Below are positions 2,724-44,096 of a stretch of DNA of 64,000 bases, piece after piece. The translations under genes were made by a program, and so were the position numbers. The first letter of the stretch is position 1; each line of letters begins with the position of its first letter. The notes beneath the pieces are model-generated. The model saw only the letters and a program-made list of their open reading frames with translations. It had not been told where the DNA came from and searched no databases. Source of the DNA: a virus; IMG/VR virus record IMGVR_UViG_3300032291_002944, positions 1 through 64,000 of that record; one strand, written 5' to 3'.

Positions 2724-3926
2724 TTAATTTCCTTTTGTTGGAAATTTTGTCCAACCATTAGTCCAAGTTGGTTTAGATAAAGTTTCAATTTCACTATTAG
2801 TTAAAGTTATTTCAGTATTACCTTCGCTCAACGCTTTTGTTTTAACATCATCTGATGTAATAATAGTAGTTGATTTACTAATAAAGTTTAATGAATTAAA
2901 TGAACCAATTTTATTGTTCTGAAATTTACTTACACCATCTTTGTAAAATTGTGCAGTTTCATTACTTTCCATTGAAAAACCACCTTTCATATATCCAATG
3001 ATTGTAGAATTATATACTTCAAATTGAGTTGCTCTTCTCCATCTCATTGCTAAATTGTGATTTGTTAAAGATGTCACATCGTTTGGTCCAACTAAAATCA
3101 TATTATCTAAAATAGGATGCGTAAATGGTTCTGCAGATGAACCTGTACCATCATTATCACACTCTACACCATTTCCTGCATCTCCGTTATCTACAAATTG
3201 TGGGTCTCTCTTTGATACTGAATACGATACTTTGCCTCTATATCCAAAATCAAAATCAAAATCATCATCTGCAGTTCCGTATGCGTATAAGTTTTTAGGT
3301 GAAACAGTTCCACCAAAGAACTCAAATGCATCATCGTTAGCGTATATAGTTTGAACATTTTCAATGATTGTTGTGCTACCAACTGCACCTAATGTTAATG
3401 CGTTAATTTCGGAGTTTGGCATTGCCGCAATACCAGCGTATTCAATACGAACATATTTTAAAATGCCACTATTATCTAAATCGTTAGTACCACCATAAGG
3501 TCTACCAATTCCACCTTCAATTGTTGGTTCTGATGTTCTATTAGTTTTAGCTCTACCTAATATAACAATACCACCCCAGTCGCCAGGAGTTCTTTCCCCA
3601 ACCGCTCTACCTGATGTAAAAACAATTGGTTTTGATGATGTTCCTTCTGCTATAATCTGAGCTCCTCTTTCAATACATAATGCTCCTTTTTCACTTATAT
3701 CTGACTTGATAATCGTTCCAGGTTGAATGATAAGTTTTGCCCCATCGGTTACATAAACATATCCCTTTAATACCCACTCTTTATCAGAAGTAAGGGTTGT
3801 AGTTGCGGTAATATTACCACTTAAAGTTGTTGATGTTGGTACATTGATTGGTGTGACCTCTCCACCTAAATCTTTAGAACATCCAAAGATTGTTAAAGTT
3901 GTTAATAATACTAATAATTTTTTCAT
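2724..3926 (-). CDS. Surface lipoprotein, beta-helix-like, partner of the TonB receptor
   Basis: A 400-residue protein with a lipoprotein signal: MKKLL, a hydrophobic core, then IFGC with the lipidated Cys at 16. The residues after it (SKDLGGE) are acidic, as in Bacteroidota lipoprotein export signals that send lipoproteins to the cell surface. The body has many short strands and turns (LIIQPGTIIKSD, GDWGGIVILG, AYGTADDDFDFDFG) typical of a right-handed beta-helix. Its start overlaps the stop of the TonB receptor gene by 4 nt (ATGA), so the two are translationally coupled, and a strong terminator follows. In Bacteroidota, genes of this kind often sit beside TonB-dependent receptors; the ligand is unknown. 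Finding it in a phage genome is surprising. Confidence 0.8.
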   Translation of the reverse strand: MKKLLVLLTTLTIFGCSKDLGGEVTPINVPTSTTLSGNITATTTLTSDKEWVLKGYVYVTDGAKLIIQPGTIIKSDISEKGALCIERGAQIIAEGTSSKPIVFTSGRAVGERTPGDWGGIVILGRAKTNRTSEPTIEGGIGRPYGGTNDLDNSGILKYVRIEYAGIAAMPNSEINALTLGAVGSTTIIENVQTIYANDDAFEFFGGTVSPKNLYAYGTADDDFDFDFGYRGKVSYSVSKRDPQFVDNGDAGNGVECDNDGTGSSAEPFTHPILDNMILVGPNDVTSLTNHNLAMRWRRATQFEVYNSTIIGYMKGGFSMESNETAQFYKDGVSKFQNNKIGSFNSLNFISKSTTIITSDDVKTKALSEGNTEITLTNSEIETLSKPTWTNGWTKFPTKGN

Positions 3927-6424
3927 AAGTTATAGTTTAATGTTAATGAAACTGTTGTTTCGTTGTTTATTTTAATTAAAGTACGATTTGGATTTTGGTA
4001 ATATTTAAATGGTTGTCTGAATATATCCGACACTGCTAATTTAATTTCTCCATTTTTGATTTTACGAAGGATAACTATGTCAATTACATCACGAGAGTTT
4101 TCAAATATATCAGGATATCCTTGAAATCCTACTGCAGATATTCTATCTCCAACTCTGTTGTATGATAAGTTTAATGTGTTGTTATTTTTATGTAAGTTTA
4201 ATCCTCCGTTTACTACATAGTTTGATTGACCTTGTAATTGTCTTTTTACTCCGTTTATGGAAACTTCTGAATTGATAAGTGATGTGTTTGAATATAAATC
4301 TAACCAATCGGTTAATTTTTTACGTAGTTCTATTTCAACTCCATATACTAAAGCGTCTTTTGGGTTTTTATATGTTAGTAGTAAATTTGATGGAACTGAA
4401 CCATCTGCAACAATTTGTTCAATTGGGTTAAAAAACTTTTTACCAAAGAAACCAATTGATATGTTTTCACCTGATTTTGGATATAATTCAAACTTTACGT
4501 CTGAATTGAATATATCAGTTTTTTGTAAGTTTGGATTTCCTAATAATTGAGCGTTACGAACAAAGTCATAATATGCAAAATTGGAAACTTCTCTAAATTC
4601 AGGTCTTGCTAATGTTTTACTTAAAGATAATCTAACCTTTGTTTTTTCACTTGTGGAGTAAGTTGCATTTAATGACGGTAATACATCCAAATATTCTCTA
4701 TCTACTGATATTTTTTGTCCACCAAAATCAGATGTTTGAACTTTAAATAAATTGTATTCAGTTCTAACACCTGTATTAATTTTTAATTTATTAATTTCTT
4801 TTTCATACATCACATATCCATTTGCCAAATCAAAATCTGCTGTATATCTATCAGTATTATTAGTTATTTCATTTAATAAATCAACCGATTCGTATCTAAA
4901 TATCCTTGCTTTGAACCCTCTTAATTTCTTCAAGTAACCTACGCCTAATCGAACATCTCCTATGGACTTGTTAAATCCCCCATTAAATGAGTTTTCATCC
5001 ATTACACTCCAAAAGCGATAGGTATCTCTCCATGCTATTGAGTACGGAGTTGATGTGTATAAAGATGATATGTAAGGTGTTACTCTATAATCAGGTTGGT
5101 CTCTTAACATAAGATTATAACCTACATTAAAATCCCAAGTTTTTAATTTTCCCTCAAATTGTGTGTTTAATACTAACTTTTGAATTGAGTTAGATGATTT
5201 ACTATCTACATATTGAACGTTATCGTAGTTTTCGCCAGTTCTACTTAAAAATGATTTTTCATTTTGGTAGTTGGTAAGTGTTTTCCAACTGTAACGATTT
5301 TCACCTAAATAAACAACATTTAATAATCCATTTAGAGATTGTACATTTGAGTAATTTAGGTCTTTGTAATTGTATGCCAATTCAGTTGATGATTGGTAAT
5401 CTAATCTTTCGGTCGTGTTTGCAGAATATGTGTTTCTTGCTGTTGAACTAAATAAAATGTTCCATTTGTTTTTAACAACACCAAATGATAAATTACCGTT
5501 TAAGTTTGGAATGGATGAAAACTCTTCTGATTGAGGTGACCCTATTAATTTAGTATACGCTCTTCTATCACCCAATCCCGCAATTCTATATGTGTTTGTT
5601 GATGGAAATGTTGTTGGGAAATGTATTGGGTCAACCAATTTAAAATCTTGTCCTGTTGACAATGAACCCCAGCTTCCTCCTAAAGATACGTTAAAAAAAT
5701 CTCCTGAAACTTCTTTTGTTGTTATTTGAACTAAACCACCTGCAAAATCACCTGGCAGATTTGCGGATGCTCCTTTGTTAATTATGATGTTATCAATTAG
5801 TGATGTAGGTATTATATCAAATGAGAATGCTCTTCTATCAGGTTCTGTTGATGGTAATTGTGTTTTGTTTAACAGGGCGGAATTATATCTATCTGCCAAA
5901 CCTCTAACTAATATAAACTTATCGTTTTGGATTGTTACACCACTAATTCTTTTGAGAGCATCTCCAACTGTTCTATCGGGTGTTTTTTTAATTGACTCAA
6001 TTGATAAACCATCAGCAACTATGTACGACGCTTTGAGTGTATTAATAAGTGCGGTTGATGTTTCTTTTTTTGATACTTGTTTGACAACTACCTCTTTTAA
6101 TTGAGTAGATTCTTCCTCTAATTTGAAGTCCAAATCATTTTTTTCTGAAGTAAAATAAACTTCTTTTTTTTCAAATGGTATATAACCAACTGAGGTAATT
6201 TTAACGGTGTAAGTAACATCAAGAATTACATTATTGACTTGAAAAATTCCTTTCTCATTTGCCGATGCTCCGTATCTATTTGAAATTGAAATTAATTGAA
6301 TTGTAGACCCAGGAAGAATTTCTCCTTTTTTGTCTTTTATCGTCCCACTAATGTTTGACGTTTTTATCTGTGAAAATCCCGTGATAGAAATCATCAAAGA
6401 TAAGAGTAATAATAGTTTTTTCAT
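3923..6424 (-). CDS. TonB-dependent outer-membrane receptor
   Basis: An 833-residue protein that looks complete. It has a signal peptide (about residues 1-18), a carboxypeptidase-like regulatory domain (SGTIKDKKGEILPGSTIQL at about 25-43, to about 100), a TonB plug (about 130-235, with RTVGDALKRISGV, LVRGLADRYNS and GDFAGGLVQITTKE), then a long beta-barrel of alternating strands to the C-terminus. This is the Bacteroidota type of active importer, driven by TonB-ExbB-ExbD, and it acts in the outer membrane with a surface lipoprotein partner, here the coupled downstream gene. No frameshift or missing segment is seen. Codon use and base composition look like the neighbours. The upstream 213 nt carry three inverted repeats, suggesting regulation. 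Possible roles: nutrient uptake during infection, or changing the host surface to exclude rival phages. Confidence 0.92.
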   Translation of the reverse strand: MKKLLLLLSLMISITGFSQIKTSNISGTIKDKKGEILPGSTIQLISISNRYGASANEKGIFQVNNVILDVTYTVKITSVGYIPFEKKEVYFTSEKNDLDFKLEEESTQLKEVVVKQVSKKETSTALINTLKASYIVADGLSIESIKKTPDRTVGDALKRISGVTIQNDKFILVRGLADRYNSALLNKTQLPSTEPDRRAFSFDIIPTSLIDNIIINKGASANLPGDFAGGLVQITTKEVSGDFFNVSLGGSWGSLSTGQDFKLVDPIHFPTTFPSTNTYRIAGLGDRRAYTKLIGSPQSEEFSSIPNLNGNLSFGVVKNKWNILFSSTARNTYSANTTERLDYQSSTELAYNYKDLNYSNVQSLNGLLNVVYLGENRYSWKTLTNYQNEKSFLSRTGENYDNVQYVDSKSSNSIQKLVLNTQFEGKLKTWDFNVGYNLMLRDQPDYRVTPYISSLYTSTPYSIAWRDTYRFWSVMDENSFNGGFNKSIGDVRLGVGYLKKLRGFKARIFRYESVDLLNEITNNTDRYTADFDLANGYVMYEKEINKLKINTGVRTEYNLFKVQTSDFGGQKISVDREYLDVLPSLNATYSTSEKTKVRLSLSKTLARPEFREVSNFAYYDFVRNAQLLGNPNLQKTDIFNSDVKFELYPKSGENISIGFFGKKFFNPIEQIVADGSVPSNLLLTYKNPKDALVYGVEIELRKKLTDWLDLYSNTSLINSEVSINGVKRQLQGQSNYVVNGGLNLHKNNNTLNLSYNRVGDRISAVGFQGYPDIFENSRDVIDIVILRKIKNGEIKLAVSDIFRQPFKYYQNPNRTLIKINNETTVSLTLNYNL

Positions 6425-6450
6425 ATTTGGTACTTAATTTTACACCAATA

Positions 6451-6485
6451 ATTAGAAATTTAGACGATAAAGTCCAATTTCTAAT
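6451..6485. promoter_or_regulatory. Inverted repeat upstream of the TonB receptor gene
   Basis: ATTAGAAATT and its exact complement AATTTCTAAT flank a 15-nt centre that itself contains GAC...GTC. It is about 26 nt before the receptor start codon, in the likely 5' leader or promoter. No T-run follows on either strand, so an operator or RNA hairpin fits better than a terminator. Confidence 0.45.
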
Positions 6486-6493
6486 ATTATGAA

Positions 6494-6505
6494 ATTGTTA
6501 ACAAT
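6494..6505. promoter_or_regulatory. Perfect 12-bp palindrome ATTGTTAACAAT
   Basis: ATTGTTAACAAT is self-complementary and lies about 70 nt upstream of the TonB receptor start, between two other inverted repeats. It has the form of a dimeric repressor or activator site. In AT-rich DNA such palindromes occur by chance, so support comes mainly from the clustering. Confidence 0.35.
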
Positions 6506-6637: not shown

Positions 6638-6714
6638 TGGTACTCCGTACGGGGCTCGAACCCGTAATCTTCACCGTGAAAGGGTGACGACTTAACCAAT
6701 TTGTCCAACGGAGC
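6638..6714 (-). tRNA. tRNA-Glu (anticodon UUC)
   Basis: A 77-nt tRNA with encoded CCA. On the minus strand: acceptor GCTCCGT pairs with ACGGAGT (first pair G-U), D stem GAC/GTC, anticodon stem TCACC/GGTGA around loop CTTTCAC (anticodon TTC, reading GAA/GAG), and T stem ACGGG/CCCGT around loop TTCGAGC. All arms close. GAA is very frequent in the acidic virion proteins here, so extra tRNA-Glu may help their translation. The tRNA begins 1 nt after the stop codon of the YkgJ-like gene and is presumably cut from the same transcript. Confidence 0.95.
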
Positions 6715-6715
6715 A

Positions 6716-7099
6716 TTAAGTATTGTTGGAAAGATACTCACACTCATATTCTCTACAAGTTTGAGGTCTTATATCATATATGCTACAAGCCTTTATTTTA
6801 GTATTGTAGAATATACAAGGTAATTTAGGATTAAAAAAATCAACTCTAAATGCGGGATAAGAATTTGGGTTTTGCCAAGCAGTCTTGTAAGGGAATAATT
6901 TTTTACCTTCTTCATATCCAATGAATATGTCTTCTTCATATATTTCTCTTCCTAATTTTGAAGATAAGTTTTTAATAAAATCCTCCGTGTCTGGATGGGG
7001 CCCGATTATATAATCTCTATCTTCTAAAGAACAACAACTGCCGTGGTAACCAGTTCTACCATAACACTTATCACTACATATATTACAATCGGTCCCCAT
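6716..7099 (-). CDS. YkgJ-like cysteine-cluster protein
   Basis: A 127-residue protein with an N-terminal cysteine cluster (CNICSDKC and CC within the first 25 residues) and a C-terminal cluster PCIFYNTKIKACSIYDIRP followed by CREYEC. This is the pattern of the YkgJ/UPF0153 family of putative zinc- or iron-chelating proteins; the biochemical role is not established. The upstream sequence contains TACCTTTG, which fits the Bacteroidota -7 box, but the -33 box is poor. The stop codon is 1 nt from the 5' end of tRNA-Glu, so mRNA and tRNA share a transcript. Confidence 0.85.
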   Translation of the reverse strand: MGTDCNICSDKCYGRTGYHGSCCSLEDRDYIIGPHPDTEDFIKNLSSKLGREIYEEDIFIGYEEGKKLFPYKTAWQNPNSYPAFRVDFFNPKLPCIFYNTKIKACSIYDIRPQTCREYECEYLSNNT

Positions 7100-7163: not shown

Positions 7164-7570
7164 TGGTGGAGGTGGCGAGATTCGAACTCGCGTGTTGCAA
7201 TATTAAAATACACAGACTACACGTTTATTCTATTAGTTCTTAATAGACAAATAATTGGTTCCTATTTTAACATTGTTACCAATAACTGTGTCGAGTTCAC
7301 TTTTACTAAGGTAGTCCTCTGAACGAGACCTTTTGATACACTAAGTAGTATCCACTTAAAGAGCTTCTGTTCCCAAGTTATATGCTCACCGACTCGTTTG
7401 TTAGTTCACTATTAAGCTACTGTAACACCAGCTTCTTTGGTTAAACCCAAAGCAGCTAATTTTGCAAATGTATTGCCTGTTATTCTTCTTTACCGTAGAT
7501 TTAAGTCATAGATAAAATCTGACTACGTGCCTGTATACCGTAACTATTCCAGTCAAAACCAGTCACCCCC
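7164..7570 (-). ncRNA. ssrA: tmRNA (ssrA), one-piece
   Basis: A 407-nt RNA gene for trans-translation, which rescues stalled ribosomes and tags the product. The ends form the alanyl-tRNA-like domain: 5' GGGGGTG pairs with 3' CACCTCC (one G-U), discriminator A, encoded CCA, and T arm GCGAG-TTCGAAT-CTCGC. The 5' ATACAG..GCACG can pair with 3' CGTGT..CTGTGTAT to make helix P2. The tag frame ends at tandem stops TAA TAG (7414-7409). Read back from there it encodes AKLAALGLTKEAGVTVA, or four more residues (GNTF) if translation resumes at GGC. This does not end in the usual ALAA/LAA. The gene has an exact Bacteroidota promoter upstream and a terminator downstream. The host certainly has its own copy, so this is a phage extra. 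Confidence 0.94.
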
Positions 7571-42770: not shown

Positions 42771-43365
42771 ATATTTCTTTAATTTTTGTTTTTAACTCTT
42801 TTAAACTTGTTATTGAATGTTCAACTTCAACATCTTTGTTGTAAGAAGTATCGTATTTAATAACAATCTTTGATTGTGGATGGTCTAATAATAGTTTAGG
42901 ATTTGCCGTAAGTAAAACATCTATTGAACCCCACATAGAATTTATTGTGGATTCACTATAAAATTTTACTGTTTCTACTAAACATCCAAATTTAGATATG
43001 AAGAATAATGATGCGGGTTTTGATTTTCCAATTTCATCTGAAACTATTAAAACATCATGTTCATCTCTAATGTCTAAATAAAAATCATTAAAATCCATCA
43101 TACTTGATACTTCAATAGAGCCAGCGTGCCCAAAAATTTCCATAGTATGTTCTTTATATAAAAAATCATAGAGGTCATTTTTATCTTTGAATGTTAAATG
43201 TTTCTCAATGTTTAATGTTGTCAAATCAGAAATAACTTTATATTCAAAATCGGATTTTTCTTCTTCTTCTATAAATGGATTTTCAATATACCATTTTTCA
43301 TATTGTTCTTGAATCTTTTTTAAAGTATCCCTTAGTACACCATTAAGTTCTATCGCAATTCTCAT
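42763..43365 (-). CDS. HAD-like protein with Asp-to-Glu change in motif I
   Basis: A 200-residue protein beginning MRIAIELNGVLRDTLKK. The layout of a HAD phosphatase motif I is clear, but the first catalytic Asp is Glu (ELNG, where DxN/D is expected). Motif II may be VLIVSDEIGKSKPAS, which also has Lys for motif III. T4-like phages carry similar proteins starting IAVDLNGVLRD, so this is a recognisable family member with an altered nucleophile, possibly catalytically weak or binding-only. It overlaps the PhoH gene by 4 nt. Confidence 0.65.
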   Translation of the reverse strand: MRIAIELNGVLRDTLKKIQEQYEKWYIENPFIEEEEKSDFEYKVISDLTTLNIEKHLTFKDKNDLYDFLYKEHTMEIFGHAGSIEVSSMMDFNDFYLDIRDEHDVLIVSDEIGKSKPASLFFISKFGCLVETVKFYSESTINSMWGSIDVLLTANPKLLLDHPQSKIVIKYDTSYNKDVEVEHSITSLKELKTKIKEIYA

Positions 43366-44096
43366 TCTTCGTATCTTTTTAATATTTTAGTAATTAATGA
43401 ATTTCTAACTATATCTTCTGCTTGAAATTCAAAAACACCAATATCATCCATGTTTTTAAATTTTTGGATTGCATCATACAATCCACTATGTTTAATATCT
43501 TTGTATCTATCGGTCTGTTCTAAATCACCTGAAATAAAAAACTTAGAATTAAATCCAATTCTTGTTAATAATAATTTCATTTGATTTGGAGTTGAGTTTT
43601 GAGCTTCCTCAAAAATTAATATTGAGTTGTCAATATTCATTCCCCTCATAAACGCTAAAGCAAATACCTCAACTGCTTCAATCTCTTTTAGTTTGTCTCG
43701 TGATTCTTTTCCAATAATTTTATTTAACAAATAATATGATGGAAAAATATATGGGTCTAATTTTTCTTCAACATTTCCAGGTAAACTACCAAGTTTTTCT
43801 TCAGCTTCAACTGCTGGTCTTACAATGATGATTTTTTCATAAGGAGTTTCAGGGTCACTTAATAGGTCAATTGCACTTTTCATTGCAATATAACTTTTAC
43901 CAACACCTGCAGGACCTGAACAAATTGTTATTTGATTTTTGGTTAACTGCTCGTAATAAATTCTTTGATTGTCAGATAAGAATTTTTGTTTAGTTTTCTT
44001 TTTAACAATTGAACATATTAGTTCTTTTTTTGTTTTTACAACTTTCTCTTCACCTGAAGGAGTTGGTGTTGGATACTTTTTCGGTCTTGTCGCCAT
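43362..44096 (-). CDS. phoH: PhoH-family ATPase
   Basis: A 244-residue protein: N-terminal basic Pro-rich lead, then ICSGPAGVGKSYIAMKSA (Walker A 61-68), IIIVRPAVEAEEKLGSLPG, ILIFEEAQNSTPNQMKLLLTR (Walker B, with Glu-Glu), and FFISGDLEQTDR. This is the helicase-like P-loop core of PhoH, one of the commonest phage accessory genes. Its role is unsettled (RNA-related or phosphate-linked). It overlaps the HAD-like gene downstream and is 7 nt from the epimerase gene. Confidence 0.92.
   Translation of the reverse strand: MATRPKKYPTPTPSGEEKVVKTKKELICSIVKKKTKQKFLSDNQRIYYEQLTKNQITICSGPAGVGKSYIAMKSAIDLLSDPETPYEKIIIVRPAVEAEEKLGSLPGNVEEKLDPYIFPSYYLLNKIIGKESRDKLKEIEAVEVFALAFMRGMNIDNSILIFEEAQNSTPNQMKLLLTRIGFNSKFFISGDLEQTDRYKDIKHSGLYDAIQKFKNMDDIGVFEFQAEDIVRNSLITKILKRYEE

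Follow-up and report, generated by a model that had tools for sequence, protein, structure and literature searches.

We found a gene pair in the genome of a T4-like phage, encoding a TonB-dependent receptor and a lipoprotein, that very probably serves phosphorus supply during infection. In the reading that we judge likely, the pair is a phage-borne, host-derived phosphorus-scavenging cassette, which is switched on by host PhoB and supplies phage DNA synthesis. Comparison of viral sequences indicates that uncultured T4-like phages widely carry the pair and exchange it among themselves, so that it is not peculiar to the phage of the window, by which we mean the whole stretch of 64,000 nucleotides that was analysed.

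Identification of the gene pair

The window belongs to a virus record 69,380 bases long, with T4-type genes for the portal, the major head protein and the terminase, and a search with the head protein gave the Flavobacterium phages vB_FspM_immuto as the closest named isolates, which fits a Bacteroidota host. An earlier note, made from the letters alone, had described a full-length receptor with signal peptide, regulatory domain, plug and barrel, coupled to the lipoprotein by a 4-nt overlap, closed by a terminator and surrounded by phage genes including the tmRNA. Pfam analysis and a structure model confirmed the receptor architecture, the two genes share ATGA at 3923–3926, and the terminator and the phage surroundings were borne out as well (Table 1).

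Table 1. Features of the receptor–lipoprotein locus and its surroundings in the window
Feature	Position	Strand	Description
TonB-dependent receptor	3923–6424	−	833 aa, intact; signal peptide, CarboxypepD_reg-like domain, TonB box, plug, barrel
Receptor domains (Pfam)			CarbopepD_reg_2, residues 25–114; Plug, residues 140–230; OMP_b-brl_3, residues 509–831
Receptor TonB box			EVVV, residues 111–114
Lipoprotein	2724–3926	−	400 aa, intact; lipobox Cys16; C-x-[KR]-[DE]-LGG signal
Intrinsic terminator after lipoprotein	2678–2693	−	CCCCACTTCGGTGGGG then T-run
Candidate Pho box	6485–6501	−	11-bp-period direct repeat TTAACA-ATTTC-ATAATA; sole exact match in the 64-kb window
-7-like promoter element	6448–6454	−	TAATTAT, 30 bp after the repeat
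tRNA-Glu (UUC)	6638–6714	−	upstream border of the cassette
Phage tmRNA	7164–7570	−	
Downstream flanking phage gene	2293–2643	−	116 aa; orthologue adjoins the 6716–7099 orthologue in the empty-site phage L265
Upstream flanking phage gene, CxxCxxCC-type	6716–7099	−	127 aa; other side of the empty site
PhoH-family gene	43362–44096	−	same phage (context only)

The receptor has a plug, a large beta-barrel, a TonB box and an export signal, the full set expected of a TonB-dependent transporter. Structural prediction of both proteins, proposed in the earlier note, was carried out with AlphaFold. The receptor model (pLDDT 86.0) was a plug-plus-barrel TonB transporter and matched solved TonB transporters with E values down to 2e-25, one of them a B12 transporter from Bacteroides that has a surface lipoprotein; the fold matches were generic for TonB transporters, most of which serve iron or B12. 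The lipoprotein was modelled as a confident beta-helix (pLDDT 91.7) with many conserved acidic residues. It had zero Pfam or NCBIfam matches, and a sequence search against solved structures returned nothing for either protein. Comparison of the lipoprotein fold with the PDB and viral models gave weak matches only, none with E <0.001, and we therefore claim no enzymatic function for it.

Part of the Cys-plus-acidic surface-export-type signal described earlier was upheld: the lipobox is present, but the full motif is not, the residues CSKDLGG offering K/R and one acidic residue only, presumably just a part of the Bacteroidota surface-export motif. This signal is conserved across phage copies, and the lipoprotein is predicted to be displayed on the cell surface. 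The TonB box is retained in phage receptors. The CarboxypepD_reg domain, N-terminal in the receptor, is its most variable part among phages; it is lacking from three receptors of about 750 aa (L036, L045 and L088), which still have signal peptide, TonB box, plug and barrel.

The PhoH gene, found in the window's phage and 15 other records, was not counted as evidence. The tag predicted for the tmRNA of the window (GNTFAKLAALGLTKEAGVTVA) is of unusual length and has three stops; that of the relative L266 is short, VEEAVVEA. Arrays of 10–14 tRNA genes lie near this locus in the relatives L265 and L268; the window has tRNA-Glu alone.

Distribution and phylogeny in phages

The earlier note had regarded an outer-membrane receptor pair in a T4-like phage as very unusual and proposed a search of related phage genomes, which showed the pair to be widespread. 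Searching viral contigs with the lipoprotein as query gave 135 encoding stretches, of which 80 were kept; relatives of the lipoprotein thus occur in at least 80 viral contigs, and the receptor gene lay directly upstream in all 72 contigs with enough upstream sequence. T4-type portal and head proteins were found in 17 and 14, respectively, of 47 of the longer contigs, among them one of 326 kb. The fecal 'Bacteriophage sp.' entries MT838075 and MT837092, which are unverified short scaffolds, were left out of the phage evidence, and MT838075 grouped with Parabacteroides in the trees. An empty site was seen in phage L265 (13255–14083), whose head protein is 94% identical to that of the window's phage and in which the two flanking genes are direct neighbours and the pair is missing.

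In trees of both proteins the phage copies formed one clade inside the Bacteroidota (SH support 100 each). The receptor phylogeny, another check proposed earlier, placed this clade next to the Chitinophagaceae, whose loci L105 (both proteins) and L106 (lipoprotein) were the nearest bacterial ones and adjoin PHO4, DUF47 and porin genes. Purifying selection on the phage copies was strong, with dN/dS mostly 0.04–0.2 over deep divergence, and the pair thus represents host-derived genes fixed in phage genomes under selection, as auxiliary metabolic genes are. Phages with an 86–96% identical head protein carried a pair from another sub-branch (receptor ~61–65% identical), or none in the sequence examined, whereas those with the nearest pair (lipoprotein 92–93%) had head proteins only ~48% identical over the matched part. 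This discordance indicates that the cassette moved between phage lineages.

Receptors of L002 and L005 were nearly identical (dS 0.09) and their lipoproteins divergent (dS 0.53), a contrast pointing to recombination inside the cassette. A 634-kb huge phage (LR745206.1, 68002–93084; L101) carries a distant pair with the lipoprotein first, which branches apart from the main phage clade and was possibly captured separately. At L266:16376–19053, L267:7384–10086 and L269:2475–5750, related phages encode TonB receptors or outer-membrane proteins of the CarboxypepD_reg type that differ from the receptor of the pair (OMP_b-brl_4 or Plug types). In one close relative such a TonB receptor gene directly adjoins the tmRNA, and in another relative a TonB receptor gene is near the head gene. 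The locus is possibly an outer-membrane gene hotspot in related phages.

Bacterial homologues and phosphate linkage

Bacterial receptors and lipoproteins were 30–38% and 38–58% identical, respectively, to the phage versions, and the two genes are adjacent in Bacteroidota genomes too. Their neighbours included Pit-type PHO4, DUF47/PhoU-like proteins, a phosphoesterase and porin-like proteins (no Pfam match, the label coming from sequence reading and the published OprP neighbour), as well as response regulators and kinases whose best scores, below the curated cut-offs, were to PhoB and to PnpS/PhoR-type models. Among 40 bacterial loci with full flanks, 14 had at least one phosphate-type gene nearby, 10 had both regulator and kinase, and 4 had PHO4 (P ~7e-4, on the rough assumption of two copies per 3500 genes); as only 14 of the 40 have such a neighbour, the family may not be limited to a single substrate.

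In F. johnsoniae, the TBDT Fjoh_0545 and lipoprotein FII Fjoh_0546 belong to the phoBR operon, and their transcripts rise by log2FC 8.0 and 9.9, respectively, under Pi depletion, and under Pi depletion only, not N or Fe limitation (PMC8115612). Judged by Pfam content and by gene order in Flavobacterium locus L179, where phoR-phoB is divergent from the pair as in the published operon, Fjoh_0545/0546 closely match the phage family. The phage receptor shows the PUSIV-type combination of CarbopepD_reg_2, Plug and OMP_b-brl_3 beside a beta-helix lipoprotein, and groups with phosphate-linked bacterial pairs through L105/L106. The likeness to the PUSIV pair Fjoh_0545/Fjoh_0546 extends to the Pfam set pf07715, pf13715 and pf14905, to an adjoining lipoprotein of pectin-lyase fold and to the phosphate-linked locus in its relative L179 (PMC8115612). 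The two differ in size, PUSIV-type bacterial relatives having ~940 and ~460 aa against 833 and 400 in the phage, and in setting, as the phage pair lies apart from phoBR, in a phage operon. ElpS, a Caulobacter surface lipoprotein of Pi starvation, has been published as related to the Flavobacterium FI–FIII lipoproteins (PMC2996285); its resemblance to the phage protein, a putative phosphate-starvation lipoprotein, follows from that published description.

Candidate promoter and accessory genes

The regions upstream of phage receptor genes yielded the consensus TTAAYA-N5-WTAAYA, consisting of two half-sites in an 11-bp register, the period of classical Pho boxes. The repeat scored >=11/12 in 26 of 39 dereplicated phage upstream regions and in 5% of shuffles, and was combined with TAnTTAT 30–32 bp downstream in 23 of the 39, against a mean of 1.3 and at most 3 in shuffles; the distance between the two elements is typically fixed at 30–31 bp. 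Phage loci amounting to 2.4 Mb of strand sequence, not dereplicated, contained 35 copies of the full architecture at the receptor as against 8 in other places, an enrichment of ~1200-fold at the receptor; two of the eight (L079/L080) apparently precede the true receptor start, judged by the alignment start, and the other six lie just 3' of the lipoprotein, two of them preceding a glycosyltransferase. A generic phage promoter was rejected, the architecture being almost confined to the cassette, and sigma-70-type promoter scans gave chance level only.

The repeat learned from phages was present before 41 of 66 bacterial receptors versus 33 of 258 control genes (P=3e-15), with perfect sites ~60-fold denser before bacterial receptors than elsewhere. 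Twelve pst loci contained three perfect sites, all before pstS, in only 2 of ~9 genomes checked, which leaves PhoB a likely, though unproven, binder of the phage repeat. The core of the Riemerella PhoP motif is TTTAACA (PMC9603813). A secreted protein of ~240 aa with no Pfam match recurs close to the pair, in 19 of the 80 phage loci (L045:11233–11961 and relatives); in L039–L041 this protein is preceded by the repeat promoter found before the receptors.

Downstream of the pair, some phages encode a glycosyltransferase of family 2 and a phosphoesterase of the calcineurin type. This phosphoesterase is 39–40% identical to those of the Flavobacterium phoBR locus and beside Chitinophaga locus L106; by analogy with PlcP–glycosyltransferase systems, the two enzymes may remodel lipids under phosphate starvation. 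In relative L268, which lacks the pair, genes for a phosphoesterase and a glycosyltransferase occupy the same region. No TonB gene was found in the 29 phage records searched, which together with the retained TonB box suggests that host energy is needed.

Proposed function and alternative explanations

We propose that, in an infected Bacteroidota cell short of phosphate, host PhoB would bind the direct repeat at 6485–6501 and switch on the receptor–lipoprotein mRNA. The lipoprotein, as a surface beta-helix, would capture or process a phosphorus-containing ligand, which the receptor, powered by host TonB-ExbBD, would bring into the periplasm; there, host phosphatases together with Pit/Pst could supply phosphate for phage DNA, to the probable benefit of the phage. 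More tentatively, the pair may be part of an exchangeable outer-membrane phosphorus island in large Bacteroidota T4-like phages, comprising receptor, surface lipoprotein and, in some, the glycosyltransferase and phosphoesterase, perhaps swapping phospholipids for glycolipids; wired to host PhoB through its own Pho box, such an island would reprogram the surface only at phosphorus scarcity.

The earlier note had suggested uptake of a limiting nutrient, iron or phosphate, or surface remodelling to block superinfection. Uptake is supported, and phosphate is favoured by the phosphate-linked homologues, the published Pi-induced pair and the shared direct-repeat promoter. That another nutrient is taken up during infection, such as glycans or iron complexes, is improbable: the generic fold matches to iron and B12 transporters speak for it, as do the Mar_Mega_1 and LR745206 megaphage receptors, published as SusC-like carbohydrate uptake genes (PMC9723777), but there is no SusD partner, phosphate genes stand beside bacterial homologues, the published pair answers Pi depletion and not N or Fe, and the promoter repeat is specific and common to phage and bacterial genes. 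Surface remodelling, in which a phage-made receptor alters or masks the host surface against other phages, we consider quite improbable. TonB receptors are common phage entry sites, and different ones lie at or near the same locus in relatives; beyond that, nothing found points to superinfection exclusion, and a decoy would need neither the conserved TonB box and plug, the purifying selection and the ever-present lipoprotein partner, nor the phosphate-type companion genes and promoter.

It is very improbable that the pair is passenger cargo of no benefit to the phage, patchy as it is among close relatives, given the low dN/dS over deep divergence, the conserved promoter and repeated transfer between phage lineages. 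An assembly chimera or bacterial contamination, raised in the earlier note and suggested by the bacterial families to which both proteins belong, can be dismissed with near certainty: the pair is found in at least 80 independent viral contigs within one phage clade, a relative has the empty site, and, far from near-identity to one host chromosome, the nearest bacterial receptor is only ~37% identical.

Relation to known systems and significance

The best-known phosphate genes of phages are those of cyanophages, whose products work in the periplasm or cytoplasm; cyanophage pstS/phoA are thought to be under host PhoB control. Like these, the pair probably represents host-derived phosphate-acquisition genes in T4-like phages, but its proteins are unrelated, of the outer membrane, TonB-dependent and from phages of Bacteroidota hosts. 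With SusCD/PusCD it shares a TonB transporter, a surface lipoprotein and a CarboxypepD_reg domain, but the phage partner is a beta-helix and not SusD-type; SusCD-type glycan uptake was rejected, as a SusD partner (pf07980/pf14322) is missing. Mar_Mega_1 and LR745206 also encode a TonB receptor, and the LR745206 locus a lipoprotein of this family, but on a distant branch and before the receptor.

Phosphate genes in phages are of a known kind, and an earlier paper described a TonB receptor in a megaphage (PMC9723777). Within the literature searched, what looks new is the pair at the outer membrane, together with its promoter and the modular island. A phosphate reading is now on offer for megaphage TonB receptors labelled as carbohydrate genes. 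What many uncultured phages of Bacteroidota seem to have taken over is the step at the outer membrane, coupled to a host-type switch; this provides a concrete, testable case of phages sensing host nutrient status in a phylum important in organic phosphorus recycling.
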